Of a stretch of 64,000 bases of DNA, positions 1,030 through 20,727 are shown piece after piece. The translations under genes were made by a program, and so were the position numbers. This DNA is from Evansella sp. LMS18 (GTDB taxonomy: Bacteria; Bacillota; Bacilli; Bacillales; Salisediminibacteriaceae): the NCBI RefSeq assembly GCF_024362785.1, contig NZ_CP093301.1, forward strand, positions 496,001-560,000. The letters run 5' to 3'. The first letter of the stretch is position 1; the number at the start of each line of letters is the position of its first letter. The notes below the pieces were generated by a model. That model worked only from the letters and a program-made list of their open reading frames with translations, was not told where the DNA came from and ran no database searches.

Positions 1030-3333
<2,304 letters not shown>

Positions 3334-4894: not shown

Positions 4895-5470
4895 TCAGTC
4901 CGCTTTTTTTATAATTGGAAAATCCTTTAACGCCCGTACTACTTTCGCTACCGGCAGTCCAACCACGGCAAAATAATCGCCGCTGATCCTCTTAACAAGA
5001 GTGGCGCCAATCCCCTGAATTCCATAGCTTCCTGCTTTGTCAAACGGGTCACCTGACTCAATATACGCCGAAATCTCTTCATCCGTAAGCTCATAAAACT
5101 CTACTTCTGTTTTAACACAAAAGGAAAGAGACTTCTCTTCACTGACGATCGCTACCCCGGTATACACCACATGTGTTTTGCCTGACAACATCCTGAGGGT
5201 CTTCCGGGCTTCCACCTCATCTGCAGGCTTTCCAAGAATCTGCCCATCATAAACGACAATAGTGTCTGCGCCAAGCACTACGCTGTCGGGGGCACTGGAA
5301 AAAACATCCTCGGCTTTTTGGGAGGCAAGTGTTTTTACAATATCTTCAGGGGTATCTTCCATATTCATTTTTTCGTCGACATTGCTTTTCTGTACGGAAA
5401 AAGGGATCTGCACCTGCTCAAGAAGTTGTTTTCTTCGAGGTGATTGTGAGGCTAGTATGAAAGGTTTCAT
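4895..5470 (-). CDS. maf: Maf family nucleoside triphosphate pyrophosphatase
   Basis: Maf proteins hydrolyse non-canonical or excess nucleoside triphosphates (dTTP/UTP-type in the Bacillus branch) and are linked to arrest of septation. The N-terminus KPFILASQSPRRKQLLE is the conserved substrate-binding segment. LGADTIV (about residues 67-73) and SGKTHVVYTGV follow, and the length (191 residues) is standard. A GGGAGGA ribosome-binding site precedes the ATG. It sits upstream of radC with an 83-base gap, probably co-transcribed. Confidence 0.95.
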   Translation of the reverse strand: MKPFILASQSPRRKQLLEQVQIPFSVQKSNVDEKMNMEDTPEDIVKTLASQKAEDVFSSAPDSVVLGADTIVVYDGQILGKPADEVEARKTLRMLSGKTHVVYTGVAIVSEEKSLSFCVKTEVEFYELTDEEISAYIESGDPFDKAGSYGIQGIGATLVKRISGDYFAVVGLPVAKVVRALKDFPIIKKAD

Positions 5471-5616: not shown

Positions 5617-7059
5617 TTATCTCCCGTCGTCCCCAAAAATCAGTTCCGGTGCTGCAATACCTGGTCTTGTCATCTCTTTCGGATCGAGAATCCTGTCCAG
5701 CTCCTCTTCAGAGAGCAACCCTCTCTCCAGACAGATTTCCCGGACCGGTCTTCCGGAAGTAATGGCTTCCTTTGCAATCCTTGCAGCGGTTTCATAGCCT
5801 ACATGAGGATTAATCGCTGTAATAATACCGACACTGCCCTCTACCATTTCCTTACATCTGTCTACATTGGCGGTAAGTTCTTCTACAGCGTATTCCCTGA
5901 ACACCCGGATACCATTCTGAAGTATTGTAAAGGACTGAAGCAGGTTGAAAACAAGCACTGGCTCCATTACATTTAATTCAAGCTGGCCTGCTTCGGATGC
6001 AAGGCTGATCGTATGGTCATTGCCGATTACCTGGAACGATATCTGGTTAACAACCTCTGCCATGACCGGATTTACTTTACCAGGCATAATGGAAGAACCT
6101 GCCTGCCTTGGAGGCAGATTTATTTCATTTAGGCCGGTCCGCGGGCCAGAGCTCATCATTCTCAGATCATTGGCGATCTTCGATAAGTTGATTGCCAGAA
6201 TTTTCAATGCGCTGGAAAGCTGGGTGTATGCATCTGTGTTTTGTGTAGCGTCTACTAAATCCTCAGCTCTGTGGAATGGGTGGTTTGTGTATGCAGCAAG
6301 ATACTCTGTCACTTTTTCAATATACTCTGGCATCGCGTTCAGGCCTGTACCTACTGCAGTTGCTCCCATATTTACTTCATAGAGCATATCTACAGAGTTT
6401 TTTACACGCTTAAGATCTCTTGTGAGCATGCGGCGGTACGCACCGAATTCCTGGCCGAGGCGGATCGGCACCGCATCCTGTAAGTGGGTTCTGCCCATTT
6501 TAATCACATCATCGAATTCTTTTTCCTTCCGCTCCATTGTTCCTACAAGTTCATTCAGTGATTTAAGCAGGCCGGCGGATAAGTTCAGGCATGCAATATG
6601 TATGGAAGTTGGGAAAGTATCATTTGTTGACTGGGCCATATTGACATGTGTGTTCGGGCTGACTTTCAGGTAGTCTCCTTTTTCTCCGCCGAGATACTCA
6701 ATAGCCCGGTTAGCAATTACCTCATTAGCATTCATATTGAAAGAGGTTCCTGCGCCTCCCTGGATACTGTCCACGATAAAATGTTTATCAAGCTTTCCTT
6801 CAATAACGTCATCAGCCGCTTTCATAATTGCTTCAGCGATTCCTTTATTCAGCACTCCAACCTCGGAGTTTGCCTTTGCTGCTGCTTTTTTCACATATCC
6901 AAACGCCCTGATAAGCTCCTTATGAGGCGGATAGCCTGTAATAGGGAAGTTCTGCTTTGCGCGGACTGTCTGTATCCCGTAATACGCATCTGCAGGAACC
7001 ATTACCTCTCCTAAAAGATCTCTTTCTGTTCTGAACTCCATGTTGCTCTCTTCAGCCAT
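5617..7059 (-). CDS. aspA: Aspartate ammonia-lyase (aspartase)
   Basis: Converts L-aspartate to fumarate and ammonia, feeding amino-acid carbon into the TCA cycle. The 480-residue protein belongs to the aspartase/fumarase superfamily. Visible motifs are GAGTSFNMNANE (102-113), STNDTFPTSIH (144-154), GRTHLQDA (189-196) and the catalytic serine loop GSSIMPGKVNP (321-331). Aspartase is preferred over class II fumarase because the sequence closely follows remembered Bacillus AnsB, including QAGSSIMPGKVNPVMAE. The start at 7059 has AAGGAAGG upstream; a longer open frame to 7191 overlaps the spoIIB terminator and is rejected. It lies between spoIIB and maf, a position where B. subtilis has no such gene. 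Confidence 0.92.
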   Translation of the reverse strand: MAEESNMEFRTERDLLGEVMVPADAYYGIQTVRAKQNFPITGYPPHKELIRAFGYVKKAAAKANSEVGVLNKGIAEAIMKAADDVIEGKLDKHFIVDSIQGGAGTSFNMNANEVIANRAIEYLGGEKGDYLKVSPNTHVNMAQSTNDTFPTSIHIACLNLSAGLLKSLNELVGTMERKEKEFDDVIKMGRTHLQDAVPIRLGQEFGAYRRMLTRDLKRVKNSVDMLYEVNMGATAVGTGLNAMPEYIEKVTEYLAAYTNHPFHRAEDLVDATQNTDAYTQLSSALKILAINLSKIANDLRMMSSGPRTGLNEINLPPRQAGSSIMPGKVNPVMAEVVNQISFQVIGNDHTISLASEAGQLELNVMEPVLVFNLLQSFTILQNGIRVFREYAVEELTANVDRCKEMVEGSVGIITAINPHVGYETAARIAKEAITSGRPVREICLERGLLSEEELDRILDPKEMTRPGIAAPELIFGDDGR

Positions 7060-7170
7060 TATTGTCCTTCCTTTCTGCTGTTCGGTTACTAGTATTTGCC
7101 GGCAGCCGGGAATCCATGTTTTTTCCCGAATAACTTTTCCAATACGACAGATTTTTTTCAGAATCTCATT

Positions 7171-7196
7171 AAAAAACCAGTGAATCATCACTGGTT
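7171..7196 (-). terminator. Terminator overlapping the spoIIB stop codon
   Basis: Arms AACCAGTGA (7175-7183) and TCACTGGTT (7188-7196) with a 4-base loop are followed on the minus strand by TTTTTT. The spoIIB TGA lies inside the stem. Confidence 0.88.
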
Positions 7197-8321
7197 CTCC
7201 CCGGTATTTTTTACGGCAAGAATAAGTTTTTCATAAGCAAGCATTGTCTTTAGCAGCGTCTCCTGCACTTCCCAGGCTGACGATGAAGAATAAACCGATG
7301 AAGAATACATACGGAGCGCAGGTTCACCTGTTTGCAGCCATTCTTCGGCCTCCTGGAAATAAGGTTTATCCGTCTCACCGGATAGTCCCTGAAATTCCTC
7401 CTCCCAGGCCTGCCCCGCCTGAAGCATTTCTGCTGCTTCCTCATTTGACAGTGCCTCACCGGAAATATCTTTTGCTGTTATAGTAGCTGCTTTCTCCATC
7501 CACGAGGTTCCTTTTTCAAAAAAACCGGCCCATTCTTCCGGGATACCAGTACTGCCAGTTATATCATAGGATTTTATATACGTTTCTGTTCCCCTTTCAT
7601 TATAAATGACAGACAATTTTTCTGCATCTTCTTTGCTGCTGCCGATTCCTATAAACAGATAGAGCGGATCGGTATTTTCCGTAATGACTGCAGGAAAATC
7701 TCCCTCCCGCAGTGCTGACGCAGTCTCCTCTGCTTTTTCTTTCAGGGAAAAGGCGCCTCCCTGAATCACGTATAAATTAAGGGAAGGGATCGAACGGGAA
7801 CCATCCTCCCCGGCAGGCACTACCGCACCAGCAGCACTACCAGGTGTTGCTGCTAAGCCACCATCCGAAGCGGGATCCGGAGGGTTGTCCCCTCCTGTGA
7901 AAATATTAAGCATAATAAATCCAAAAATTCCTCCAGTGATCACTGCAGCCGCAATTGCCAGAAAGACAGAATGAAAAATAAAATTAAAGTTAAACGATAC
8001 TCCGGAGGAATTCTTTTTCTTTCTCTGAAAAGGAGGCAGCCGGGGTCCGGCATCACGTTTGCCATCGTCCCAGAAAGGGAGGCTCCTTTCCTGCTTTTCC
8101 TTTTGTTTTTTATTAAAATCGATTATCTTATCTTCCACATTTGTTTGGTCTGTTTCCAGGTCGGCGAACTCTGTTTCAGTATTTTTCTCTTCACTGGACG
8201 CAGCAGTTTCTTCCCCTGCTTTATCCCGGGACTGACCTGAAAGGCCAGGCGTTCTGGCACGTTCCGTAAATATTTGCTCTTTCCCGTTGAGACGGATCGA
8301 GACGTTTTTCTTTTTTTCCAT
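7188..8321 (-). CDS. spoIIB: SpoIIB-like SPOR-domain sporulation protein
   Basis: SpoIIB localises to the sporulation septum and helps septal wall thinning and the onset of engulfment. The 377-residue protein has a charged cytoplasmic N-terminus starting with a short VSIRLNGKEQ segment, one membrane span (about 114-142) and an external SPOR-like domain (about 182-252) beginning LNLYVIQGGAFS. SPOR domains bind denuded septal peptidoglycan. The C-terminal 120 residues are poorly conserved. The place between the comC position and maf is the same as in B. subtilis. Start at 8321 is supported by GGAAGGAG. Confidence 0.88.
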   Translation of the reverse strand: MEKKKNVSIRLNGKEQIFTERARTPGLSGQSRDKAGEETAASSEEKNTETEFADLETDQTNVEDKIIDFNKKQKEKQERSLPFWDDGKRDAGPRLPPFQRKKKNSSGVSFNFNFIFHSVFLAIAAAVITGGIFGFIMLNIFTGGDNPPDPASDGGLAATPGSAAGAVVPAGEDGSRSIPSLNLYVIQGGAFSLKEKAEETASALREGDFPAVITENTDPLYLFIGIGSSKEDAEKLSVIYNERGTETYIKSYDITGSTGIPEEWAGFFEKGTSWMEKAATITAKDISGEALSNEEAAEMLQAGQAWEEEFQGLSGETDKPYFQEAEEWLQTGEPALRMYSSSVYSSSSAWEVQETLLKTMLAYEKLILAVKNTGENQ

Positions 8322-8509: not shown

Positions 8510-9310
8510 CTAAAACCCTGGTTCCCACAGAGGATTCACTTTTTGCACAGGTCGTTCGAAGTTTCGGTGGAAGAAGAAATCCTCGAACTCATCCTCCATT
8601 TCCGGCAGGTAGAATGTGCTTACTTCAATATTAAAAGACAATGTAAGTTCTTCATCCTCAGTAAGCGTTTCCGGCTCTCCATAACCTTCAAACGAAACAG
8701 TGTTTATATGTGTGACTCTCTCGAATCTCTCAATTTCCTCAATAAATCGGAAAAGTTCCGGATAATCTTCCGCATCTACATCAAGAGACACTGACACTTC
8801 GTTCAGGCCGTTTACAGGCGGCGGCACCGTAGATTCTGTGACCAGGTCCTCTTCAGTCTCAGTTTCCACTTCCACCTCTGCTTCTGCTGCGGTATCCCCG
8901 TCTTCCACTTCAGCTTCCGCCTCTACAGAAACTTCCACCTCTTCTGTTTCTGCTGCCGTCTCATAAACTACCCCCTCATATTCTCCTTCACTGAACGAGT
9001 AAGAGGTAATCAATGTTCCAGAAACAGCTTCCGCCCGTTCCAGGTCAAGAAGCCAGTGTTCTGTATTTGGAGCGAATGGAACCTTTTGAAGAAAAGCCTG
9101 TATCTCATGTGTTTCGTACTGTCTGGAATCTTCGGCAGGTCCACTTATTTCTTCCAGCAGACTTTCCTCAAATTCCAGCTGGGATTGAGCGCTCTCAAGC
9201 TCTCCCTCTACAGGGGAAATAAACATAAAATAAGCTGAGACAAAGAAAATGAGCAGAAGAACAGCAGAGGCTGCCAGATAAATATATTTCCTGTTAAGGT
9301 CTGTAGTCAT
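8510..9310 (-). CDS. pilO: PilO-like type IV pilus assembly protein
   Basis: Last gene of the pilus operon. A short cytoplasmic head, one membrane span (about residues 9-33) and a coiled-coil stretch are followed by a ferredoxin-like C-terminal region (NEVSVSLDVDAEDYPELFRFIEEIE), the architecture of PilO, which pairs with PilN in the inner-membrane alignment complex. An insert rich in Glu and Val (about residues 120-165) interrupts the domain. The ATG at 9310 is chosen because GGAGGAG lies just upstream; the gene then overlaps the pilN end by 17 bases. Sequence similarity to PilO is weak and the call rests mainly on topology and position. Confidence 0.75.
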   Translation of the reverse strand: MTTDLNRKYIYLAASAVLLLIFFVSAYFMFISPVEGELESAQSQLEFEESLLEEISGPAEDSRQYETHEIQAFLQKVPFAPNTEHWLLDLERAEAVSGTLITSYSFSEGEYEGVVYETAAETEEVEVSVEAEAEVEDGDTAAEAEVEVETETEEDLVTESTVPPPVNGLNEVSVSLDVDAEDYPELFRFIEEIERFERVTHINTVSFEGYGEPETLTEDEELTLSFNIEVSTFYLPEMEDEFEDFFFHRNFERPVQKVNPLWEPGF

Positions 9311-10196
9311 TCTCCTGCTCCTCCGTTCCCCAGTCATCTTCTGCATCGTCATCTAGTAGATCGTTTTCCAGGTTAAAACTGTTATCTTCTGCATCATTAA
9401 ACTCGCCGTCGAAAATAATATCATTATCTTCAGCGTCCCAATTTTGCCCTGTATTCCCCGGTCTATCATCATTGCTCTCCTGGCTTTCTCCCGGGAGCAC
9501 ATCATCTTCTGATTCTCCCCCTGCTTCTCCAGGCGGATCAATTCCTTCCATATCATCACTCTGGCCGGCATCATCGGTTCCTTCCAGGTCTTCCTGTTCT
9601 TCGATTTGTTCCGCTTCCCACTCTTCAATGTTCCTTACGAGCTCCATATTCATGGTGATGGTGTAATCGGCATTATATCTCGGCAAATACTCTGCAGTGA
9701 CAAGTTCCCCTTCCATATCGGCCGTGATGTCGTTAGTAGTTATTTCATTCAGCATTGCATTTTCTGTCAGTTCCGACAGAGTCAGATGATGCAGATAGCT
9801 TGCTGCGCCCCGCTGTGTCTCAAACTGGGCAGAAATAGTTACGATGCCAGCCTCGGAAAATTCATAGGAAGTGAAAAAACCTTGTTCCGGCAGAAGGCTG
9901 ACGAGATGAGAAAGCACTCTTGAAGCAAGTATCTGGTTCTCTTCAAGATAAATGACCGAAGCCTCTAAGTCAGCAGTTTCCGGAGTATGCCTGTCTTCGC
10001 TAAGTTCAATTTCCTGAAGCTGCTGTACAGTGCTGATTTCATTTTCTGTCCAGACAAGTTCCCGCTGCACATTCTGATAATGGAAGATTCCTAAGACCAA
10101 AACCAAAACAGATGCAACAAAAAGGGAGACTGCCGCTATGATAAACGCTAAATTTCTCTTTGGTTTTTCAGGAAGTAAGTTAATCTCTATGTTCAT
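9294..10196 (-). CDS. pilN: PilN-like type IV pilus assembly protein with acidic tail
   Basis: PilN binds cytoplasmic PilM through its N-terminal peptide and dimerises with PilO through its periplasmic-type domain. Here the signature INLLPEKPKR stands at residues 4-13, directly before a membrane span (about 15-39). A coiled coil and a small alpha/beta domain extend to about residue 190. The last 100 residues are a low-complexity tail very rich in Asp and Glu, unusual for PilN. The ATG overlaps the pilM stop (TAATG), so translation is coupled; a longer frame to 10217 is rejected. Confidence 0.85.
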   Translation of the reverse strand: MNIEINLLPEKPKRNLAFIIAAVSLFVASVLVLVLGIFHYQNVQRELVWTENEISTVQQLQEIELSEDRHTPETADLEASVIYLEENQILASRVLSHLVSLLPEQGFFTSYEFSEAGIVTISAQFETQRGAASYLHHLTLSELTENAMLNEITTNDITADMEGELVTAEYLPRYNADYTITMNMELVRNIEEWEAEQIEEQEDLEGTDDAGQSDDMEGIDPPGEAGGESEDDVLPGESQESNDDRPGNTGQNWDAEDNDIIFDGEFNDAEDNSFNLENDLLDDDAEDDWGTEEQENDYRP

Positions 10197-11188
10197 TAGC
10201 GCACCTCTTTTAAACACAAACTAAGCGGCAATATGTATTGATAAGGAAGTGTTTCATTTGCTTCTTCCAGAATACTCAAAGAAGAGACCAGCTCAGTTGT
10301 CCTGGCGGGAAAGGCTTCTTCCAGTTTACCTTTGAGTTCCTTCAGCCGGGGATGGTCCCCTGCCAGAAGGATTTTGGTAACTTCCTGTTCACCTTTATTG
10401 AGCGTGAATTTATAGAAATTATAGACACGTTCAATTTCTGTAAGCTGGTCCCTCACAGAAAAATCCCCGGTGCCTCTGTCTGCGGGACGGTTTTCCTGCA
10501 GGTCAATCTCCCACCTCTCCTCTTCGGTACCTGGTGGGAGATGCCTCATAAATACAGGCTTGTCTTCATGAAAAATGCTTAAGTTTACAGAAGTAAGATC
10601 CCACTCGATAAATAAATAATGTTCCTCTGGTGAAGCTTCTTCCATTCTGTTGAATAGTCTGTAAAGAGAAAGTGCCGAGACATCCGCAGCAACCGGATCC
10701 ATTTTAAATTCTTCGAGCTTATCAGCGTATGCCGAAACAAGGTTTTCCGGGGCTGCGAAAAAAAGAAGCTTTCTCGCTTTATTCTCTTCTAATTCCTCTT
10801 CAGAATCGATTATGTAATAGTCAAAATACGCCTCTTCAAATGGCAGATGAATCGTCGAACCTATCTCAAAGTTCAAGTATCCTCTTATTTCTTCTCCAGG
10901 CAAATCTCCAGGGACGGAAATTTTCCGAAAAAAGACAGAAGCATCAGGAACGAAAAACATGACCCGCTGATTTTTCAGCTTCCATTCATCTGTTAGTTCC
11001 TCGAGGATTAGATCAAACGATGCCTCGTTAATAATTTTCCCTTTTTCAATAATACCGTCAGGGAGGTATTTTTCACCGTAGCTATGTATATGGGAGAGAG
11101 AATGCTGTTTCGTCGCCGCATAGCGAATAACGTGGTCTTTTATTTGTATGGCGATGTCGTATTTTTTTCCTATGTTTAATGAGAGCAC
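10196..11188 (-). CDS. pilM: PilM actin-like pilus assembly ATPase
   Basis: Cytoplasmic actin-fold protein that binds the PilN N-terminus and links the motor to the membrane complex. The 330-residue protein begins LSLNIGKKYDIAIQIKDHVIRY, the PilM-type first subdomain. It contains FFVPDASVFFRKISVPGDL and EIRGYLNFEIGSTIHLPFEEA, typical of PilM. The start is GTG, with AGGAGG nine to ten bases upstream. It is followed by pilN with a one-base overlap and preceded by the prepilin peptidase gene 23 bases away. Confidence 0.88.
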   Translation of the reverse strand: MLSLNIGKKYDIAIQIKDHVIRYAATKQHSLSHIHSYGEKYLPDGIIEKGKIINEASFDLILEELTDEWKLKNQRVMFFVPDASVFFRKISVPGDLPGEEIRGYLNFEIGSTIHLPFEEAYFDYYIIDSEEELEENKARKLLFFAAPENLVSAYADKLEEFKMDPVAADVSALSLYRLFNRMEEASPEEHYLFIEWDLTSVNLSIFHEDKPVFMRHLPPGTEEERWEIDLQENRPADRGTGDFSVRDQLTEIERVYNFYKFTLNKGEQEVTKILLAGDHPRLKELKGKLEEAFPARTTELVSSLSILEEANETLPYQYILPLSLCLKEVR

Positions 11189-11211
11189 TTATTGTCTCCC
11201 TCCTTTTTCAC

Positions 11212-11964
11212 TTAGAAGAAACTCATATACCATTCTAGTAATGGCTGATAGAAAAAGTATGCCAGAAGAGTTCCGGCAGCTATTGCCGGGCCAAAGGGAA
11301 CAGGCTGGCCCCGCTTTATTTTTTTCGTAAGCATTGCGGTAATCCCGGCGACAGAACCTATTAAACTTGCAAAAAATAATGTGAGGAGCACTCCTTGAAG
11401 GCCAAGTACAATACCGAGCACACCAAAAAGCTTGATGTCTCCGCCACCCATGCCCCCTTTACTTATGAGGGCGATAAGAAGAAGCACACCAAATCCGACG
11501 GCAGCTCCAAGGATGCTGCTCCACCATGGATCCAGTGGTGAAATTATTCGAAGAACGATGAAGATACCCAGAAAAAAGATGAGGATCTTATTTGGTATAA
11601 GCATCGTAGTGATATCGGAAACAGTAATAATCACCAGCAGGGAAATCAGGGCTAAAGCTACTGGCAGTTCCTTTGACCATCCCACCAGAAAGGGTGAAAT
11701 CGTAAAAAGAAGTCCCGTTACAAATTCAAAAAAGGGATATATAGGGGAAATTGTCGTTCTGCATCCGCCACATCGTCCTTTTTGAAAGAAAAAAGAGAAA
11801 ATTGGGACAAGCTCTCTCCATTTTAACTTTTTCCGGCAATTCGGGCAATAAGAACCTGGCCGGACAATTGATTGCCCGGCCGGTACTCTTAAACCTACAA
11901 CATTATAGAAGGAGCCTAAAATGGCACCGAGTGTGAAAAGGTAGATGTGGAGTAGTAGTTCCAT
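11212..11964 (-). CDS. comC: Prepilin peptidase (ComC/PilD)
   Basis: Membrane aspartic protease that cleaves type IV prepilin leaders after Gly and methylates the new N-terminus. The 250-residue protein has an N-terminal methyltransferase-type region with the zinc cysteines C40, C43, C65 and C68, and about seven membrane spans. The catalytic aspartates are Asp117 (VSDITT) and Asp176 (GMGGGDIKLF). In B. subtilis a lone comC occupies this place between folC and spoIIB; here it is embedded in a complete pilus operon. It probably processes the pilin at 11995, the three prepilins at 16737-18790 and any ComG pseudopilins encoded elsewhere. Confidence 0.95.
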   Translation of the reverse strand: MELLLHIYLFTLGAILGSFYNVVGLRVPAGQSIVRPGSYCPNCRKKLKWRELVPIFSFFFQKGRCGGCRTTISPIYPFFEFVTGLLFTISPFLVGWSKELPVALALISLLVIITVSDITTMLIPNKILIFFLGIFIVLRIISPLDPWWSSILGAAVGFGVLLLIALISKGGMGGGDIKLFGVLGIVLGLQGVLLTLFFASLIGSVAGITAMLTKKIKRGQPVPFGPAIAAGTLLAYFFYQPLLEWYMSFF

Positions 11965-11994
11965 TTTAGGTTGGTCCTTTCAAATGTTAATTAG

Positions 11995-12417
11995 TTAGTT
12001 ATTTCTTACTTCATCTCTCGATAAATTAGATTGTGGTATTGGGGTAGCATTAGTGCCAATTCTTCTTTCAGAACCTCTTAAGAATACCGAGTAGGTTCCA
12101 TCATCTTCAAACACTACTCTACTATTATTAACATAGTCTAATCCACCACTATCTGGGTCTTCCATTCTTTCGATATAATCTCCGGCTATTAACTCTTGTA
12201 GAGTTACATCTTCAGCATCTGGATAGGCTGTCAGGTATAACCTTGCCGAATTGATCATTTGCTGGGCGTTCCCCACATGAGCGTCTTTTTTTGAATTGTC
12301 GATCATCCCCGATACACTAGGTATAGCAATCGCAGCGATAATACCTAAGATAACAACGACAACAAGGAGCTCGATGAGTGTAAGACCTTTTTGATTCTTG
12401 AGAAGTTTTTTAAACAT
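11995..12417 (-). CDS. pilA: Major type IV prepilin (PilA-like)
   Basis: A 140-residue prepilin. The 11-residue basic leader MFKKLLKNQKG is cut before LTLIELLVVVVILGIIAA. Glu at +5 of the mature protein is present, and the hydrophobic helix runs to about residue 33. The globular part has no cysteine, so there is no disulfide D-region as in Neisseria pilins. Position inside the operon between pilC and the peptidase, with its own GGGAG ribosome-binding site and a hairpin in the upstream gap, fits the main structural subunit. Confidence 0.92.
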   Translation of the reverse strand: MFKKLLKNQKGLTLIELLVVVVILGIIAAIAIPSVSGMIDNSKKDAHVGNAQQMINSARLYLTAYPDAEDVTLQELIAGDYIERMEDPDSGGLDYVNNSRVVFEDDGTYSVFLRGSERRIGTNATPIPQSNLSRDEVRNN

Positions 12418-12475
12418 TTTCTTTCTCTCCCTTTTATATTAGTTTTATAATCAGGCCGGTTGCACTACTGGCTCC

Positions 12476-12507
12476 AAACAGTCCAAGTGCCCACATACAG
12501 ACTGTTT
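12476..12507. repeat. Hairpin in the pilC-pilA intergenic gap
   Basis: AAACAGTC (12476-12483) pairs with GACTGTTT (12500-12507) over a 16-base loop. There is no T-run on the minus strand. A hairpin just upstream of the pilin gene could stabilise the pilin end of a processed mRNA; this is inference only. Confidence 0.35.
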
Positions 12508-12531
12508 TTCATTGCCTCCGCATTGCTACCT

Positions 12532-13737
12532 TTAAATTTCCGAGTAAATCTGGAACATTGGCACGATGATGGAAATAACAATCACTCCAACGATCCCCGC
12601 CAGTAAAATTATCATCAATGGTTCGATCAGTGCTTTGAGCCGGTCCGTGGCGTACTCTACTTCTTTCTCATAGAAGTTCGCTACTTTGCTGAGCATTTGA
12701 TCCAGGGAACCAGTTTCTTCGCCAATACTGATCATTTGCACCACAAGGGGCGGAAACACCCAGTGCTTTTCCATAGGAGTTGTGAGGCGCTCTCCTTTTT
12801 CCAGCGCATCCCTGGACTCTTTCAGTGTCCTGCTGATGACTTCGTTTCCAACGACACGTTCTGTTATTTGCACTGACTGGAGAATTGGCACAGAACTGGT
12901 GAATAAAGAACTTAATGTTCTTGTCATTCTTGCTAATGCGGCTTTTTGAAGCAAAGGACCGAAAACAGGCATTTTTAGCAGGAAGTAATCAAGATGATAC
13001 TTAGTCTCAGGAGTCTGCCTGAGCGCCCATATACCAACCGCAGCCAGGACACCGAGAAGTATGAGAAGCCACCATAACGTCGCAACAACCTCGCTGGCAC
13101 CTAATACAAATACGGTGATTGCGGGCAATTCACCGCCTAAATCAGTAAGCATAGATGCGAAAGTCGGTACTACTGAAGTCAAAAGAAAAATAACTACTGC
13201 GATAGCGACAATCCCGACGATAACAGGATAAGCCATCGCGGCTTTTACTTTCTGTTTCGTCTCATGCTGTTTCTCAAACTGGGATGCCAGCTGGTCCAGA
13301 GACTCATCAAGCGTTCCTGAAGCCTCGCCTGCCTGAACCATATTAATAAAAATAGGCGGGAAGATTTTTTTCTGCTTCGCTGCGGCTTCAGATAGCGGTT
13401 TTCCAGTGACAAGTTCCTCTTCGATGGACTCAAGAGCCCGCATCAGCGGTTTGCTGCTTGTCTGTCTCGCCAGTATGGAGGTTGCATTGACGATTGATAC
13501 ACCGGACTGCAGTAACGTGGCGAACTGGCGGAGAAACAGGACAAAATCCTGGAGTTTCACCGGATTGCCGATCGTCAGCTCCTTCTGGAAAAAAGAGGGC
13601 TGGACTTCAGTAATAGAGGCTAATGCGACTCCCTGTCCACGGAGTTTTTCAATGGCATGCTTTCGTGATTTTCCGTTTATAGTACCTTCTTTTTTTATAC
13701 CGGTTTTCGTCCGGCCCTGATAACGGTAATGAGGCAT
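12532..13737 (-). CDS. pilC: PilC/GspF inner-membrane platform protein
   Basis: Polytopic platform that couples the PilB and PilT motors to pilin insertion and extraction. The 401-residue protein begins with the usual YRYQGRTKTGIKKEGTI segment and carries two tandem T2SSF domains (about 65-190 and 268-395). Three membrane spans lie near 165-190, 215-240 and 372-396. Motifs such as LRQFATLLQSGVSI and MVQAGEASGTLDESL are intact. The ATG overlaps the pilT stop (TAATG), indicating coupled translation. Confidence 0.95.
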   Translation of the reverse strand: MPHYRYQGRTKTGIKKEGTINGKSRKHAIEKLRGQGVALASITEVQPSFFQKELTIGNPVKLQDFVLFLRQFATLLQSGVSIVNATSILARQTSSKPLMRALESIEEELVTGKPLSEAAAKQKKIFPPIFINMVQAGEASGTLDESLDQLASQFEKQHETKQKVKAAMAYPVIVGIVAIAVVIFLLTSVVPTFASMLTDLGGELPAITVFVLGASEVVATLWWLLILLGVLAAVGIWALRQTPETKYHLDYFLLKMPVFGPLLQKAALARMTRTLSSLFTSSVPILQSVQITERVVGNEVISRTLKESRDALEKGERLTTPMEKHWVFPPLVVQMISIGEETGSLDQMLSKVANFYEKEVEYATDRLKALIEPLMIILLAGIVGVIVISIIVPMFQIYSEI

Positions 13738-14783
13738 TATAAATTTCTCTCCCTGATGTAAGGCTGCGCTTCATCTCGTGATATTTTTCCAAGCTTAAGC
13801 AGATGGCCGATACTCATCTCCAGCGTGTGCATGCCCTCCGCTCTGCTTGTCTGCAGGATACTTTCGATTTGATGCACTTTATCACTGCGTACCATGTTTG
13901 CTACAGCTGAATTGTTAATTAATACTTCCGTTGCGGCGACCCTTCCATGGCGATCAGCTGTAGGCATCAGCCGCTGGGAGATTATCGCTGCTAATACAGA
14001 AGCGAGCTGCACCCTTATTTGCGGCTGCTGGCTGGAATCGAACACGTCCACAATCCGGTTAATGGTTGCCGCTGCACTTGATGTATGAAGTGTCCCTAAG
14101 ACTAGATGCCCTGTTTCAGCAGCAGTGATGGCTGTGGAAATCGTCTCCAGATCTCTCATTTCCCCGACTAAGATAACGTCAGGGTCCTGTCTCAGAGCTG
14201 CCCTCAATCCTGCGGCAAATGATCTTGTGTCAAAGCCCACTTCCCGCTGGTCAATAATCGAGTTGTTATGTTTGTGGAGATATTCGATAGGGTCTTCCAG
14301 AGTAACAATATGCTTTTTCATATGTTCGTTAATATGTTTAATCATCGCCGCCTGCGTTGTGGATTTTCCGCTTCCAGTTGGACCGGTTACGAGGACTAGC
14401 CCTTGTTTTTTCTCGGCAATCTTTCTTAAAACAGCAGGCATTTGCAGTTCCTCAAGGTCAGGGATTTCCGTAGGGATCACCCTGATAGCCATGCTAAGAT
14501 GTGACCGCTGATAATAAGCGTTTAACCGGAACCTTGCCACCCCAGGAATACCGTAGGAAAAATCGGCTTCCCGGGCAGTTTCCAAATGGTCCCTCATCAT
14601 TGGCGGTAGAACTTCTGCGACGAGCCCCTGCATGGCCTCCGGTGTCAGCGTCTCGTTGCTTACAGTAACCAGATCCCCATGAATCCGGAGAACTGGAGGC
14701 TTACCTATCGTCAGATGAATATCTGAGGCCTGCAGGTGAATTGCTTCTGTCAGTATTTTTTCGATGCCTGTATTCAAATTCAT
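13737..14783 (-). CDS. pilT: PilT pilus retraction ATPase
   Basis: Hexameric motor that depolymerises type IV pili and drives twitching or DNA uptake. About 348 residues, standard for PilT. Visible are ASDIHLTIGKPP in the N2 domain, Walker A GPTGSGKST (about 135-143), the Asp box TLEDPIEY, Walker B VILVGEMRD (about 204-211) and the His box LGTLHTSSA. The C-terminal QRLMPTADRHGRVAATE is also PilT-like. The frame can start at GTG 14786 or ATG 14783; ATG is taken. It follows the pilB stop without a gap. Confidence 0.95.
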   Translation of the reverse strand: MNLNTGIEKILTEAIHLQASDIHLTIGKPPVLRIHGDLVTVSNETLTPEAMQGLVAEVLPPMMRDHLETAREADFSYGIPGVARFRLNAYYQRSHLSMAIRVIPTEIPDLEELQMPAVLRKIAEKKQGLVLVTGPTGSGKSTTQAAMIKHINEHMKKHIVTLEDPIEYLHKHNNSIIDQREVGFDTRSFAAGLRAALRQDPDVILVGEMRDLETISTAITAAETGHLVLGTLHTSSAAATINRIVDVFDSSQQPQIRVQLASVLAAIISQRLMPTADRHGRVAATEVLINNSAVANMVRSDKVHQIESILQTSRAEGMHTLEMSIGHLLKLGKISRDEAQPYIRERNL

Positions 14784-14786
14784 CAC

Positions 14787-16448
14787 CTACTTATCGGCAG
14801 CTGCCCGGAGGATTTCTTCTGTGGTCGTTAATCCTTCCTTCACTTTCTGCAGCCCATCGTCTATTAAAAAGGTCATTTCATTTTGAATCGCATAGTTCCG
14901 GATATCCGTACTGGATTTTTCATTCATAATCATCTGTTTAATTTCATCATCAATTACGAGCATTTCATGGATAGCAATCCGATCCCGGTAACCGGTCATA
15001 TTACAAGTGGGACAGCCATCGCCACGGTAGACCTTGTCAATTTCAATTCCTCTTCTTGTAAAAATATCTTTTTCTCTCACGGTGACAGGATGTTCCTTTT
15101 TACAGTCCCGGCAAATTCTCCTTACGAGCCTCTGTGAAATGATTCCGGACAGGGACGAAGCAACCAAAAACGGTTCAATCTTCATATCTATCAGTCTGTT
15201 AACTGTACTGATGGAATCATTCGTATGGATGGTACTGAGCACCAGATGCCCTGTAAGAGAAGCCCGCACAGCAATTTCCGCAGTCTCTGAATCACGTATT
15301 TCCCCTACCATGATGATGTCAGGATCCTGGCGGAGGATGGAACGAAGCCCGCTGGCGAAAGTCATTCCAACCTTCGGGTTCACCTGGATCTGGTTGATGC
15401 CTTCCAGCTGGTATTCCACCGGATCTTCCACCGTAATAATATTAACTTCCTCCGAATTAAGCTTGTTCAGCCCTGCATACAAAGTGGAAGATTTCCCCGA
15501 CCCGGTAGGACCGGTAATCAGAATTATTCCGTTGGGCTGCTGAAGGAGTTCTGTCAGCTGTGCATAATTTTTCTTACTGAACCCAAGCTTATCCAGGTCA
15601 TTCAGGGAACGCCCCGCATCGAGAATCCGCATAACTACCTTCTCCCCATAAACTGTAGGCAGGGTAGAAATACGAAGATCTACCGGGTTAAAATCCACAT
15701 CCACTTTAATTCGGCCGTCCTGTGGTATTCTCGTCTCCGTAATATCAAGATTTGCCATGATTTTTATCCTGGCTGTGAGCATGCTCTGCATATGTTTTGG
15801 CAAAGTACGCTCCGTACGAAGAATTCCGTCGATCCGGTATCTAACAACAACCTGACTCTCCTGCGCGTCGATGTGAATATCACTAGCACGTTCCTGTACA
15901 GCTCTGAGTAAAAGCTGGTTAACCAGTTTTACCATCGGGGAATCTTCCCGGGTTACAAGCTCAGTATTCTTTTCTTTTTGTTCAGGAAGCTCTTCAAAAA
16001 GTTCTTCCACGGCTTCATCAAGCTCGTAGTATTTATGGATCGCTTTAATGATTTCATCCTTGGAGGCAATGGAAACCTCCACTTCAAAACCGGTGGACAG
16101 TCGAATGTCATCAATTGCGAAATAATCCATCGGGTCTGACATGGCAATATACAATTTATCCCCTTCAAGTCTTAATGGCATCAGGGAGCTTCTTGCTGCA
16201 AGTTCCTTGGGCACGATACTCGTTACTTTCGAATCCACTGGGTACCGGTAAAGGCTGATATGGGGAATCCCGAGCTGAAATTCCAATACTTCAATAAGCT
16301 GCTGTTCTGTTATGTATCCTTGCTGTAAAAGCATATCTCCAAGCTTCTGGTCCTCTGCTTTTTCAGTTAATGCTGTCTGAAGCTGTTCCTCTGTTATTAA
16401 TCCTGATTCTACTAAAAGGGTTCCAAGCCGTTTTCGGGAAGCAATCAT
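14787..16448 (-). CDS. pilB: PilB pilus extension ATPase with MshEN domain
   Basis: Hexameric motor that powers pilus polymerisation. The 553-residue protein starts with two tandem MshEN-type motifs (residues 7-30 and 35-58, RLGTLLVESGLI and KLGDMLLQQGYI), which bind c-di-GMP in characterised relatives. An intermediate domain and a GspE ATPase domain follow, with Walker A GPTGSGKSS (313-321), Walker B IIMVGEIRD and LSTIHTND. The zinc tetracysteine is C446, C449, C479 and C482. One MshEN position is changed (Lys for Gln at residue 30). It is the first gene of the minus-strand pilus operon. Confidence 0.95.
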   Translation of the reverse strand: MIASRKRLGTLLVESGLITEEQLQTALTEKAEDQKLGDMLLQQGYITEQQLIEVLEFQLGIPHISLYRYPVDSKVTSIVPKELAARSSLMPLRLEGDKLYIAMSDPMDYFAIDDIRLSTGFEVEVSIASKDEIIKAIHKYYELDEAVEELFEELPEQKEKNTELVTREDSPMVKLVNQLLLRAVQERASDIHIDAQESQVVVRYRIDGILRTERTLPKHMQSMLTARIKIMANLDITETRIPQDGRIKVDVDFNPVDLRISTLPTVYGEKVVMRILDAGRSLNDLDKLGFSKKNYAQLTELLQQPNGIILITGPTGSGKSSTLYAGLNKLNSEEVNIITVEDPVEYQLEGINQIQVNPKVGMTFASGLRSILRQDPDIIMVGEIRDSETAEIAVRASLTGHLVLSTIHTNDSISTVNRLIDMKIEPFLVASSLSGIISQRLVRRICRDCKKEHPVTVREKDIFTRRGIEIDKVYRGDGCPTCNMTGYRDRIAIHEMLVIDDEIKQMIMNEKSSTDIRNYAIQNEMTFLIDDGLQKVKEGLTTTEEILRAAADK

Positions 16449-16689
16449 AGTATCACCCGCCTTTTGTATATATTCATCTTTGTTCTATATAGTTAACGAA
16501 ACCGGGACAAAAAATAGTCCAAAGGGACCACCGAAAGGGAATTGAATTTATAATTATTAAAAAAGTATTCGGTTTTTAGTAATTACTGTAATTCTATTAT
16601 AATGTATACTGTAATAAAATAAATATTTTTTGTGATTTAAGTGTGAATTTTTTGCTAAATTTTGTGTTAACATGTAAATTATTCTCATT

Positions 16690-16718
16690 TTGTTACTTTA
16701 TTTGAAATTCGTTATATA
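16690..16718 (+). promoter_or_regulatory. Candidate sigma-A promoter for the minor prepilin genes
   Basis: TTGTTA (16690-16695), a 17-base spacer and TATATA (16713-16718) lie 19 bases before the ATG, whose ribosome-binding site is AAGGGGG. The rest of the 288-base divergent gap (16449-16736) is AT-rich. The minus side toward pilB shows only weak promoter-like matches. Confidence 0.45.
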
Positions 16719-16736
16719 AACAAGGGGGCAATAGGC

Positions 16737-17171
16737 ATGAAAAAAATGTTAGTTCTTTTTACCCAGGAAGAATCAGGGCGGACATTGATTGAAATAATTG
16801 CTTCCATCGTGTTGTTATCGATTATTGCTATCCCCTTCGCAGGCATGTTTGTCCAGTCCAGTAAATCTATCAATGTTTCGGATGAGATTATAAATGCTAC
16901 ATATGTGGCGCAGACGGAGATGGAGAAAATCTATCAATTAAGCTCAGAAAATAATAACTTCCATGATCTTATTTCTAAACTGGATTATGACGAGAGGTTT
17001 GAAAATGATTTTTATAAAGAAACAGAAAAATATCTTATAAAGTCCAATTTGACTCGTAAAAATAATGAGTTAGTACAGGTTTTAGTGAAAGTATTTGAAG
17101 ATGAAGCTGCTTTAGATGCTGAACGTCCTGCAGCTCAAATGGAATCGATATACTTATGGGAGGGAAACTAA
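16737..17171 (+). CDS. PilV-like minor prepilin
   Basis: A 144-residue protein with a prepilin leader ending ESG, followed by RTLIEIIASIVLLSIIAIPF. Glu at +5 is present and the hydrophobic helix has normal length. The residue after the predicted cut is Arg, where Phe, Leu, Met or Val is usual. The charged C-terminal region has no recognised domain. It opens a three-gene plus-strand set divergent from pilB; similar PilV-PilW-PilX triplets make tip or priming complexes in other bacteria. Confidence 0.8.
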   Translation: MKKMLVLFTQEESGRTLIEIIASIVLLSIIAIPFAGMFVQSSKSINVSDEIINATYVAQTEMEKIYQLSSENNNFHDLISKLDYDERFENDFYKETEKYLIKSNLTRKNNELVQVLVKVFEDEAALDAERPAAQMESIYLWEGN

Positions 17172-17174
17172 AGC

Positions 17175-17639
17175 ATGCTGAAAAAACTTCAGGATAACCG
17201 TGGTGTTACTTTAGTTGAAGTGCTAGTTTCCACTGCTCTCTTATCAATGATCCTTCTCGTAATTACTTCTTTTCACCTTTTCGGACAGAACCAGTTTATT
17301 AATCAAAAGTCTCATAGTGATTCAGTGACAAATGTTCGCCTTGCGATGAGTGATATGACAAAAGAAATAAGAAAAGGAGCAACTGTGACGGACTGCGGTT
17401 ATGAGGAGCTAACAGTCGGAGATAATAGCTACAATATAGAAATTAACAGTTCCAATGGAGAATACAGGTTGGTGAAATATGGAACAAACCCGCTTGAAAT
17501 AGGGGAAATAAAAAGTTTCGAATGTAAGTTTATAAAAACAGAGTCAGAAAACCTCGGGGTAAATATTGAGATCACCGGCACTCAGCCAGGCCAGAGCAGT
17601 CCAGTCTCTCACTCTTCCAGAATATATTTCAGAAAATAG
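17175..17639 (+). CDS. PilW-like minor prepilin
   Basis: A 154-residue protein with leader MLKKLQDNRG, then VTLVEVLVSTALLSMILLVI, an intact class III prepilin signal with Glu at +5. The body contains NVRLAMSDMTKEIRKG, a segment typical of PilW/GspJ-like minor pilins, and two cysteines (in VTDCGYEE and SFECKFIK) that could form a disulfide. It begins 3 bases after the preceding gene and is followed 11 bases later by the PilX-like gene, so the three are one transcript. Confidence 0.82.
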   Translation: MLKKLQDNRGVTLVEVLVSTALLSMILLVITSFHLFGQNQFINQKSHSDSVTNVRLAMSDMTKEIRKGATVTDCGYEELTVGDNSYNIEINSSNGEYRLVKYGTNPLEIGEIKSFECKFIKTESENLGVNIEITGTQPGQSSPVSHSSRIYFRK

Positions 17640-17650
17640 GCGGTGATACT

Positions 17651-18790
17651 ATGAAAAAGAACTTAAAGAACGAAAAAGGAATCGCTCTTGTTGCTGTTTT
17701 GCTTATGATTACCGTGATTTCTATTCTCTCCGTAGCGCTAATGGGAGTAACCGCCACCAATATAAAACTCAGTTCAGGAGAAAGGGATTACCAGTCTGTG
17801 TATTATATTGCAGAGGCTGGGGCTATAAAAGCATATCAAAATATTAAAAATGAAAGATTGATGGATATATATGAGGAAGCTGACAGTGCAGAACAATTCT
17901 TCGGAAAACTACAAAATGAATTGGGGCCTATCATTATAAACAACTTTGAGGAATCCTTCGGCCATGAACCTTATGCGGAAGTGAACTTAAACGGTCACCC
18001 TGAAGAATACCACATAACATCCACAGGTTTTTTAGGCAATCGTTCAAGGACTGTAACCCTAGACATTAACATAGATTGGGTAGATAAACCTTCGGGCTTT
18101 TATTTTGCTATCTATGCAAATGATATAGAACTCGGGGGAAATGCTAAAATTATTGGGGATGTAGCTATGTTATCTCCACAAGGAAGTTTTACCAGAGGTA
18201 ATGCAACCCATGACGACTCAGTTGTAGATATAAATGATATTCCAGACAGAGAAAAGCCTCCTCCTTTTCCTTTGGAATTCCTCCCTGATTTTAAAGATGC
18301 ATCCCCTCTCCCAAGAGGTACCGTAAAAGCAGACGGCTATTATGAAGAAATCAAGGGGAATACAACTATTGATGTGAGTAATGGAGACAGAATGATACGG
18401 GTAAAACGGCTGCAATTAGGTAATGGAGATGAAATTAAACTTATTGGAGACGGTCGCTTAATTTTATATGTTGAGGATAATCTATCTCTTCATAACGGAG
18501 GCAAAATTAACAGCGGCGGAGTAAGTGACAAAATGACAATATTTTATCCCGGTTCCAATCTTACTCTCAGAGGGGAGATTATAGGATCACTATATGCTCC
18601 ATACGCTGCGGTTACTAGTAATGGAGGCTTACTTGAAGGTTCAATAATAGCCGATAGATACACAGCCCAGGGAAATGCAGCAACGTTCGAACCGCCAAAT
18701 TTCACTTCCATGCCAGGAGGAAGACCAAGTACTGGAGAAGTTACAGCCGAGGATTTAATTGAAATTGATTCTCCTGTAAAAGAACAATAA
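17651..18790 (+). CDS. PilX-like minor pilin with large C-terminal domain
   Basis: A 379-residue protein whose N-terminus MKKNLKNEKG, then IALVAVLLMITVISILSV, matches PilX-type minor pilins, which often lack Glu at +5 as here. After the helix comes GERDYQSVYYIAEAGAIKAYQ, a common PilX segment. The C-terminal two thirds (from about residue 150) has repeating beta-strand patterns (GNTTIDVSNG, GDEIKLIGDGRLILYV, GEIIGSLYAPYAAV) that suggest a beta-helix-like exposed domain, probably at the pilus tip. It ends at a strong bidirectional terminator. Confidence 0.82.
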   Translation: MKKNLKNEKGIALVAVLLMITVISILSVALMGVTATNIKLSSGERDYQSVYYIAEAGAIKAYQNIKNERLMDIYEEADSAEQFFGKLQNELGPIIINNFEESFGHEPYAEVNLNGHPEEYHITSTGFLGNRSRTVTLDINIDWVDKPSGFYFAIYANDIELGGNAKIIGDVAMLSPQGSFTRGNATHDDSVVDINDIPDREKPPPFPLEFLPDFKDASPLPRGTVKADGYYEEIKGNTTIDVSNGDRMIRVKRLQLGNGDEIKLIGDGRLILYVEDNLSLHNGGKINSGGVSDKMTIFYPGSNLTLRGEIIGSLYAPYAAVTSNGGLLEGSIIADRYTAQGNAATFEPPNFTSMPGGRPSTGEVTAEDLIEIDSPVKEQ

Positions 18791-18829: not shown

Positions 18830-20449
18830 TTATTCCCCTTTCACAGGCCTTCCTTCTTCATCAAATCCTGATGGCGGGGTGAATTTTTGTCTTCCATCTT
18901 CATTCATGTCTGGTGTGCCACTGCCGTCCTGGGAACGATCCTGCCAGCCCTGCTGGCCATCCCGTTCCTGCTGGCCATCCTGCTGCCAGCCTTGGCGGTC
19001 ATCGCCATAGCCAGAACCGTAGTCTCCGTCTTCACCAGTTCTGTCTCTGTCCCATCCGTCTCCGTTACTTCCTCCGGAGCCGTAGTCGAAGTCATCGTCC
19101 GTATCTCTTCCATCATAGCCGGAGCCGAAATCAGAGCCTCCATCATACCGCCCATCTCTGTCTGAATCGCCCTGGTAACCAGACTCGTCGTCATATCCTG
19201 CATCAGGCCAGTCCCGGGCGGGGTCCCCATCCAGATCAAATTCGTCTTCGTCCGTCCCATCATCTGTTGTCCGGGCGAGATAATCTTCTTTACTCCAGAC
19301 TTCCACCCTTTCTTCCGCTGGATAATAATCATTTGCGATTACTTCTTCGAAAATGATCTCAGATTCCAAATTGGTGAAAGTTCTGGCCAATTGATAGGAA
19401 AGCCCTGGTTCTCCAGTTTCTATAACGTTTTCCGTACCTTGTGGCACTGTGTCTGAATAGCGGACAATCGTTTTTGGCTCAATTTGCTGCTGGTCAAGTA
19501 AATCTACATTGATTGTATATGGAAATTCCTCCCCATATACTTCTGCACTGATCCTGCCGTTTTCCGCTGACAAATGCAGCTCATAGGGTACAGGGTTAGG
19601 ATTACGAAAAATCAAATCTGACTGATACTCTACGATTCTTACGTCAAACCCTTCAGGTACAGTGTCATAAAGTACGTCGCTCTGTACTCGTTCAATAAGT
19701 TGGAAATTGGTGTGAAGCAGGGCTTCATAGACTGCAGAAGCCAGAATTGACATAGATTCTTCTGAAGGAACCTCAAGCTCTCCCCCTGCGAACATTGTAC
19801 TGAATGTATAATTTTCTTCCGGTTCGATGATAAACGGTTCTGTGCTGTTGAGCCACAATGAAAGCTGGTCGCCGAAATAAGACCTATCTGCCTGATAAAT
19901 AACCGAAGGTACCTCTGCCTCCGTCATGCCGTCCGACGCAACAGTAAATTCATGAAGTGAGAGAGTAATATCCTCATCAGGAAGCTCTGAGGCTCTTAGC
20001 TCCAGTTCTTCTCTCAGTGCTTCTTCATCCACCTCAAGTTCATAACCTGCGTGTTCTGAAAAAATGGCAATGATTTCTTCCAGTTCTCTTCTGTCTGCTG
20101 AGACAATAAGATCGCCTTCTGCAACTTCCCCGTTATCCATATTCTGAACAGATTCCTCTATAAAAAAGTTCAGTTTCTCAGAAGGAAAGACTGCTGTTTT
20201 TTCAAACCAGCGCACTTCAATCGTCTGGCCTGACTTCCAGTTTTCGGTCTGCTCCCGCAATGCAGTGACAGCTTCTTCCTCGCTCATACCGCTGATATCA
20301 ACGCTCGCCATATACGTTTCCACATCATAGCGCTCTTCTTCAAACCAAATAGCGTAAAGCATATTCCCTGAAAAATTAAATAATGAAAGAAAAATTATTA
20401 TACCTGTCATGACAACAAGTGATGATATAAACCATTGCAATTTCCCCAT
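18830..20449 (-). CDS. VanW-domain membrane-anchored protein with Asp/Gly-rich tail
   Basis: About 539 residues. An N-terminal membrane span (about 5-30) anchors a long extracellular part. Two alpha/beta segments precede a VanW region (about 215-330, YTFSTMFAGGELEV...RNPNPVPYELHL) and a G5-like segment (VEVWSK). Residues from about 400 to 510 are low complexity, rich in Asp, Gly, Tyr and Gln, and include DSDRDGRYDGGSD, which fits a DxDxDGxxD calcium loop. VanW function is unknown; such genes often lie beside pilus genes in Gram-positive bacteria. ATG 20449 with GGGGTG upstream is preferred to GTG 20458. Probably a surface protein working with the convergent pilins. Confidence 0.8.
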   Translation of the reverse strand: MGKLQWFISSLVVMTGIIIFLSLFNFSGNMLYAIWFEEERYDVETYMASVDISGMSEEEAVTALREQTENWKSGQTIEVRWFEKTAVFPSEKLNFFIEESVQNMDNGEVAEGDLIVSADRRELEEIIAIFSEHAGYELEVDEEALREELELRASELPDEDITLSLHEFTVASDGMTEAEVPSVIYQADRSYFGDQLSLWLNSTEPFIIEPEENYTFSTMFAGGELEVPSEESMSILASAVYEALLHTNFQLIERVQSDVLYDTVPEGFDVRIVEYQSDLIFRNPNPVPYELHLSAENGRISAEVYGEEFPYTINVDLLDQQQIEPKTIVRYSDTVPQGTENVIETGEPGLSYQLARTFTNLESEIIFEEVIANDYYPAEERVEVWSKEDYLARTTDDGTDEDEFDLDGDPARDWPDAGYDDESGYQGDSDRDGRYDGGSDFGSGYDGRDTDDDFDYGSGGSNGDGWDRDRTGEDGDYGSGYGDDRQGWQQDGQQERDGQQGWQDRSQDGSGTPDMNEDGRQKFTPPSGFDEEGRPVKGE

Positions 20450-20475
20450 CCTGCACACCCCGTTTTAAAAATCTT

Positions 20476-20727
20476 CTACGCTGATTTATTCCCCTTTTTA
20501 TCCAGTAAATAAGCAACAATCCAGGAAGTAGTGACAATAAGGACAAAAATACCTCCTGCCACGTATCCCCAGTGGAAATAATCGAGGAGAATGATACCTG
20601 TATAAAAATATAGGGAGGCTATAAGTACGAGAACTACTGTCAGTTTCTTTGAAAAAACAGAAGGCAATAATAACAGAATAGTTAATAGAATACTTATCCC
20701 TGCTAACAGCAATATAATTTCAACCAC
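20476..20727 (-). CDS. Small three-span membrane protein
   Basis: An 83-residue hydrophobic protein with about three membrane spans (residues 3-22, 29-50, 54-75) and a short basic tail LLDKKGNKSA. No family is recognised. The GTG start has AAGGAG six bases upstream, which supports translation. It lies between the GGDEF gene and the VanW gene, same strand, and probably belongs to their transcript. Confidence 0.6.
   Translation of the reverse strand: MVEIILLLAGISILLTILLLLPSVFSKKLTVVLVLIASLYFYTGIILLDYFHWGYVAGGIFVLIVTTSWIVAYLLDKKGNKSA

Follow-up and report, generated by a model that had tools for sequence, protein, structure and literature searches.

Does a prepilin peptidase gene (comC) that stands alone at its chromosomal position in a bacillus represent the remnant of a type IV pilus operon, or was the pilus operon built around comC? 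We addressed this question with a stretch of 64,000 nucleotides (the window; positions 496,001-560,000 of contig NZ_CP093301.1, the single 4.90 Mb contig of the Evansella sp. LMS18 genome), in which a pilus operon containing the peptidase gene (pilD/comC) lies between folC and spoIIB. An earlier annotation of the same DNA (the original prediction) had proposed both histories, and its interpretation is partly supported by our results. The window operon is best read as having replaced the family's own type at the same slot, and so is the operon of a second genus in the family (g6). We put the probability of the whole reading at about three in four; it comprises a complete type IVa pilus operon lacking a secretin, situated in a conserved slot, the replacement there, and the roles that we infer for cyclic diguanylate (c-di-GMP), PilD, PilT and a VanW protein. 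All coordinates are window positions; genomes are labelled G, loci L, genera g (g1 being the genus of the window) and GTDB families f.

An open reading frame (ORF) check recovered the eleven pil and prepilin ORFs at 8510-18790 with the coordinates and strands originally claimed. On the minus strand, in the direction of transcription, lie the genes for the extension ATPase PilB (14787-16448), which carries an MshEN c-di-GMP-binding domain, the retraction ATPase PilT (13737-14786), the platform protein PilC (12532-13737), the major prepilin candidate PilA (11995-12417), the prepilin peptidase PilD/ComC (11212-11964), PilM (10196-11188), PilN (9294-10217) and PilO (8510-9352). In profile searches PilB exceeded the Pfam cut-offs for T2SSE and MshEN (E 3e-19) as well as that of the c-di-GMP motif model NF053729; its best model was TIGR02538 PilB (E 2e-188), which at 627.6 bits was under the cut-off of 675.65, with the GspE model close at 623.1 bits. 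PilT (TIGR01420, 470 bits, curated cut-off 319), PilC (T2SSF, E 1.6e-64, together with GspF/PilC models), PilA (N_methyl, E 2e-9), PilD (A24_N and A24) and PilM (PilM_2, E 3.8e-16) were all over cut-off, and the predicted PilT motor is therefore present. PilN, at 21.6 bits just under its cut-off of 22.8, was also recognized by gene order. PilO scored 20.2 bits on T2SSM (Pfam cut-off 27.8); the four best PDB fold matches of its AlphaFold model (built with 20 relatives; mean predicted local distance difference test score 71) were 3jc8 chain Oa, which belongs to a model of the type IVa pilus machine, and 2rjz A, 2rjz B and 5uvr, all titled PilO (E 1.6e-7 to 8e-3). The PilM/PilN/PilO alignment complex is thus present, PilM being identified by profile and PilO by fold.

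Three divergent genes on the plus strand encode minor prepilins. The first (16737-17171) has a class III-like N-terminus, SGRTLIEIIASIVLLSIIAIPF, read from the sequence, and has homologs in some other full loci; it gave no convincing profile match. The second (17175-17639) matches N_methyl (E 7e-6), and the third (17651-18790) encodes a PilX-like minor pilin whose C-terminal part resembles adhesive domains (PilX_N, DUF7305, pAdhesive_15) and which is a candidate tip adhesin. The genome has no match to the secretin family PF00263, a result which is expected for a monoderm and is not defining for monoderm pili. Taken together, the genes predict a type IVa pilus system that has no secretin and forms a retracting surface fibre; PilT would retract this fibre for surface motility or adhesion, and the function of the pilus is in this respect a prediction from sequence. 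PilC and PilB score similarly on the GspF and GspE models, which would suit a pseudopilus or type II-like system with no retractable pilus; such a system is very improbable, given PilT over its curated cut-off, the genome without a secretin match, and the PilX-like and other divergent prepilins. The description of the locus as a complete type IVa pilus locus between folC and spoIIB is accordingly borne out by profiles and fold, but the original prediction overlooked a riboswitch and three further genes in the pilB-folC interval, encoding a VanW/G5 protein, an 83-residue product and a GGDEF/GAF protein.

The presence of a pil operon in a bacillus is in itself ordinary, because PilT is widespread (over cut-off in 264 of the 397 sampled genomes of the order, 394 of which have a PilD match) and because such an operon was published in 2011 (PMC3244431). 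Interest lies instead in the history of the slot, the riboswitch, VanW and orphan PilMNO genes. The slot is a conserved chromosomal site of the order, bounded by valS and folC on one side and by spoIIB, maf and radC on the other. With a full operon defined by pilB, pilT, pilC and pilM matches beside pilD, single genomes from each of 46 other families gave 32 full operons, nine lone comC genes at the slot, four comC genes elsewhere and one partial operon; for 28 of the 32 full operons the sequence retrieved also contained a folC or maf/radC flank. Full operons also occur among the named loci, including those of Cytobacillus, Anoxybacillus, Metabacillus, Mesobacillus, Robertmurraya, Rossellomorea, Neobacillus, Domibacillus, Planococcus and Sporosarcina, although the 80 named loci are the best matches to the window PilD and hence a biased set. 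One locus at a contig edge (L131) and nine duplicate or near-duplicate records were excluded from most counts and trees; one analysis retained two of them.

The pil genes and the genes flanking the slot are in strong conflict, and the history of the slot is best read as one of loss and replacement. In the flank trees each genus of the family with at least two rows forms one clade, g1 joining g4, and g6 joining g2, g5 and g7; a second set of flank genes again kept each genus together. The tree of pilB, pilT, pilC and pilM (pilBTCM) unites the g1 and g6 operons with one f28 locus in a clade far from g2, g3, g4, g5, g7 and g8. Approximately unbiased (AU) tests on pilBTCM rejected a family clade by 256 log-likelihood units (lnL; p 4e-51) and a grouping of g1 with g4 by 854 lnL, and on the flank tree a grouping of g1 with the non-lone g6 loci was rejected by 290 lnL (p 3e-15). 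PilD agrees more weakly (AU p 0.038 against a family clade and p 0.023 against a g6 clade). In the PilD/ComC tree the g1 PilD, the window's included, groups with that of a single further family genus and with those of other families, and is separated from the remaining PilD/ComC sequences of the family. By the refuting criterion set out in the original prediction, the view of the window operon as the ancestral one still in place is thus not supported. Within g6, the newcomer PilD is found in the full and partial loci, and the family type in the three lone loci. As the PilD of the g1 and g6 operons is unlike the family comC in type, we conclude that it travelled with the operon.

The limits of the exchanged segment can be approached through the neighbouring genes. 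The VanW of the window is 32-37% identical to those of genera of the family and 18-25% identical to those of the other loci compared, with the same trend in g6; vanW thus groups with the family, which places the changeover in the stretch from vanW to pilB. At the opposite end, spoIIB also resembles that of the family in identity tables, less clearly. The replacement would have come about by recombination in the shared flanks. The same conflict would arise if the family ancestor had possessed two operons, each with its own pilD, and different lineages had kept different ones. Extra copies do occur: G158 has two tandem pil operons (L235), and L240 (G164) contains parts of a second, inverted one. 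The two copies in G158 are each other's sisters, though, and one has no pilD match, while the 35 genomes of the family gave only weak matches to a second or third peptidase (best E 2.4e-11), with the exception of G015, in which two strong matches represent halves located at contig ends. We consider such hidden paralogy improbable and prefer replacement within the slot.

Loss of the operon has left traces at the slot. The family sample of 35 genomes yielded 34 loci (G015 is not among them), of which 23 are full, four partial and seven lone; one of the latter, L082, is counted as lone with its folC side ending at the contig end, and is absent from the flank tree. In the tree of flanking genes the lone and partial loci nest in genera that otherwise have a full locus. 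We searched 53 non-full intervals with profiles of the pil and vanW genes; 17 of them gave a total of 62 matches (E<=0.01), whereas the reversed intervals, used as a control, gave none. Some of the matches are to intact genes, but nine of the 53 intervals contain truncated, collinear pieces of pil or vanW genes beside comC: the middle of pilC (L114), the end of pilC with pieces of pilM and pilO (L188), the start of pilM (L164), the start of pilA (L178), the end of pilO (L171), pieces of pilM and pilO (L181, L234 and L252) and the start of vanW (L077). In L187 pilT is reduced to its end, ahead of pilC. L164 is a near neighbour of the full locus L250 (branches of 0.026 and 0.017), so its loss is recent. 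These fragments and the nested lone and partial loci bear out, in at least several lineages, the proposal that a lone comC is the remnant of a pil operon. When ComC was paired with PilD from full loci, the ComC branch was the longer one in 33 of 39 pairs (median difference +0.27); the corresponding median for host genes in the same pairs was +0.03.

Several points nevertheless weigh against replacement and loss as we describe them. No remnant was found in 36 of the 40 plain lone-comC loci, including the Bacillus-like L230, whose Maf is closest to PDB entry 1ex2 (presumably the B. subtilis Maf), but two other genera of the GTDB family of L230 have the full operon (L236-L239). The ComC/PilD pairs are not strictly independent, and the host branches were also longer in 30 of the 39. 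The lone comC of Evansella vedderi (L062) joins neither the PilD of its genus nor clearly the native type. The flank trees draw on a small number of genes, with gaps in the data, and quick trees under LG+G4 served for the pilBTCM and flank tests. Of the groups tested only the family was defined beforehand, g1+g4 and g1+g6 having been chosen once the trees had been seen. Distances of pil genes partly track those of folC (Spearman correlations from 0.46 for pilT to 0.76 for pilB in 27 loci), and much of the descent is therefore vertical. A purely vertical history, with an ancestral window operon never replaced and the conflict due to tree error, would agree with the common slot and gene order, and the pilB-folC correlation falls between those of folC with maf (0.49) and with radC (0.84); the AU rejections of both pilBTCM groupings and of g1 with the non-lone g6 loci on the flanks make it highly unlikely. 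Finally, a two-rate model of gain and loss (lnL -86.4) outperforms a loss-only model (lnL -96.9). In the better model gain is roughly twice as fast as loss, in line with re-acquisition, and the state at the root is not clear. By parsimony, presence and absence changed 42 times over the 195 tips of the PilD tree and 34 times over the 156 tips of the host tree, but such counts do not fix the direction of change, and we did not use parsimony or the Mk2 model as evidence for loss.

Since the two-rate model allows and even favours gain, it also bears on the second history proposed originally, in which a lone comC came first and the pil genes were assembled or inserted around it. Three observations leave this very little credence: pil gene fragments lie beside comC, the operon PilD of g1 and g6 differs in type from the family comC, and the order pilB-T-C-A-D-M also occurs in three of six loci from outside the order (L257, L258 and L260). 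The evidence points instead to replacement in the same slot.

Why should comC outlive the operon? The genome has three A24 peptidases; the ORFs of the other two comprise 185 and 191 codons and are read as TadV-like from their length. With only one full-length peptidase in the genome, the window PilD very probably processes the ComG pilins too. Separate comGA- and comGB-like genes are located elsewhere in the genome, as are three T2SSE ATPases with ORFs of 451-476 codons, read as tad-like. The window operon itself was also considered as a ComG or a Tad pilus, and both were rejected: ComG models were below cut-off for PilB, PilC and PilA, and no Tad or Flp model was the best match anywhere in the operon. 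PilD would thus serve both the type IVa pilus and the separate ComG pilus, and this double service would explain the persistence of comC. The comC position of bacilli can therefore be considered a readable record of pilus loss and exchange, in which the part shared with DNA uptake stays; the record includes gene fossils, operon replacement and a comC that evolves faster after the loss.

PilD is not the only part to persist. Four genomes (G018, G019, G024 and G028) keep pilD with open pilM, pilN and pilO (loci L059, L060, L065 and L069), and G012 keeps pilD with pilN and pilO only (L081); none of these loci has pilB, pilT, pilC or pilA at the slot. In PilC and PilB searches of ten genomes, the five with orphan genes yielded only ComGB-like and ComGA-like proteins and weaker tad-like ATPases. 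Orphan pilMNO recurs in three genera (g2, g3 and g6). Ratios of nonsynonymous to synonymous substitution (dN/dS) for the L059/L060 pair are 0.17-0.41, below 1 and near those of pilD and folC of the same pair, which indicates some constraint and no more; between L065 and L069 the synonymous sites of these genes are saturated. It is conceivable, although doubtful, that the ComG machine has taken over PilMNO in these genomes to form a hybrid transformation pilus, apparently with at least three origins (g2, g3 and g6), and that PilMNO may already serve both pili in genomes with a full operon such as that of the window. The duller reading is slow decay. Genomes of this kind provide a test of whether type IVa pilus and Com machines share parts.

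The riboswitch overlooked in the original prediction is a c-di-GMP-II aptamer (12445-12528, minus strand; Rfam RF01786, 77.1 bits, gathering threshold 53.5), which fills the gap between pilC and pilA and ends 27 nucleotides before pilA. It matches the model over its full length (positions 1-84), with partly mismatched outer pairs in the first stem. Rfam scans of 21 loci revealed the aptamer in ten, and a custom model built from 11 sequences (the window and these ten loci) gave 42 matches in 40 of 204 sources at E<=0.01, the 11 building sequences being included by construction; the remaining sources had no match at this threshold. The custom model also matched L052 and L055, where the Rfam threshold gave nothing. 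Forty of the 42 matches, that of the window included, lie on the operon strand behind pilC (or its remnant) and before pilA (in L188, pilD); the pilC-pilA gap holds an aptamer in 38 loci besides the window. Of the other two, one is an additional copy that precedes pilD in L172, and one lies within the second, inverted pil fragment of L240. Among the 28 loci of the other pil clade, 24 have the aptamer, and so do all eight full g1 loci and all three full g6 loci, as well as L163, L170, L208, the partial L187 and the remnant L188, which retains it between the pilC piece and comC. No terminator-like pattern was found behind the window aptamer; one fold pairs bases just behind it with the Shine-Dalgarno region, but its z is -1.12 and these bases vary in the alignment. 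High c-di-GMP would switch pilin synthesis on, by analogy with Clostridioides difficile, and would license the PilB motor through its MshEN domain. The putative riboswitch and the MshEN domain together offer testable c-di-GMP control of a Bacillaceae pilus.

Between pilB and folC, all on the minus strand, lie the genes for a membrane-anchored VanW/G5 wall protein (18830-20458; VanW E 2e-8), whose structural model contains the G5 fold, an 83-residue hydrophobic ORF with no family match (20476-20727) and a GAF-GGDEF diguanylate cyclase (20850-22613; GGDEF E 1.7e-36, with an intact GGEEF motif read from the sequence). The 100 loci with both flanks include 50 full and 39 lone ones; a vanW gene lies in the folC-pilD interval of 42 of the former and two of the latter, and five of the eight full loci without it belong to g1. 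In about 15 of 18 independent host-tree pairs vanW follows the operon, and never the opposite (median p 6e-5). VanW/G5 may therefore have a wall-related role in the pilus, in which it would help the fibre through the wall or hold it there, and is a candidate wall-passage protein for pili without a secretin. The GGDEF gene was likewise considered as a pilus partner and rejected, there being no paired association with the operon (median p 1).

The anchors of the slot are all on the minus strand. On the left are folC (22885-24165; Mur_ligase_M/C and position) and, further out, valS (33084-35726; named from sequence, with tblastn matches upstream of folC in other loci). On the right follow a spoIIB-like gene (7188-8321; SPOR domain at 20.9 bits, cut-off 21, and position), a fumarase/aspartase-like lyase gene (5617-7191; Lyase_1 and FumaraseC_C), also found in most family loci and in f28 loci, maf (4895-5470; Pfam Maf, E 7.5e-67) and radC (4131-4811; named from sequence, with tblastn matches downstream of pilD/comC in many loci). 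Just past radC is a catalase-peroxidase-like ORF (1030-3330, minus strand), named from sequence alone.

Several loci depart from the usual arrangement. In L184, L190 and the Planococcaceae-type loci L115, L123 and L127, pilD follows pilO beside maf. In genus g53 (family f46) the pil operons of two loci (L232 and L233) lack a pilD match and have neither a folC nor a maf match in their neighbourhood, and comC also occurs away from folC (L221, L223-L225); the 'pilB' matches of L224 and L225 (33-35% identity) were read as those of another ATPase, and both loci were reassigned to the class with a lone comC elsewhere. The slot locus of Parageobacillus caldoxylosilyticus (L121) has no pilT match, and its pilB and pilC matches begin late, an apparent deletion. 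L067 (G020), counted as full, has pilB and pilT, a pilC match of only about 390 bp and no pilA match, perhaps reflecting early decay. Bacillus sp. NRRL B-14911, which is discussed below, we take to be B. infantis; L111 is another B. infantis.

Among the titles and abstract openings of the literature matches listed, mostly from non-subscription sources, none dealt with the loss or replacement of pil genes where comC lies, with a riboswitch ahead of pilA in Bacillaceae, or with a role of VanW in the pilus. The pil operon reported in Bacillus sp. NRRL B-14911 by Imam et al. (2011), according to whom a significant number of pil operons in Gram-positive bacteria include pilT, occurs beside com and tad operons, as we infer for the window genome; the available part of that report contains no comparison of the slot and does not deal with loss, replacement, a riboswitch or VanW (PMC3244431). 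Denise et al. (2019) describe type IVa pili in monoderm Firmicutes and regard comC as exchangeable with pilD, and their T4aP/ComM classification, in the portion available, does not treat the folC slot (PMC6668835). The cluster of P. thiaminolyticus likewise comprises pilB, pilT, pilC, pilD and pilMNO, and pil clusters are seen to move; there the insertion is that of a mobile element, and the accessible text does not mention the folC slot (PMC9765702). In C. difficile the c-di-GMP-II riboswitch Cdi-2-4 precedes pilA1 and acts as an ON switch by way of transcription termination, which takes place before pilA1 and the pilB operon that follows it (PMC6366702, PMC6200980). A class II aptamer thus stands ahead of the major pilin gene in both organisms, but that of the window is placed inside the operon, between pilC and pilA, and lacks a recognizable terminator-like pattern. 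The comC gene of B. subtilis lies between folC and maf, next to spoIIB, as in the window, whereas the available description names no pil genes at this comC-spoIIB locus; that of B. anthracis is located elsewhere in the chromosome (PMC7232415). In an order in which two thirds of the sampled genomes have PilT, our comparison suggests that the solitary comC of B. subtilis makes this species a derived exception.

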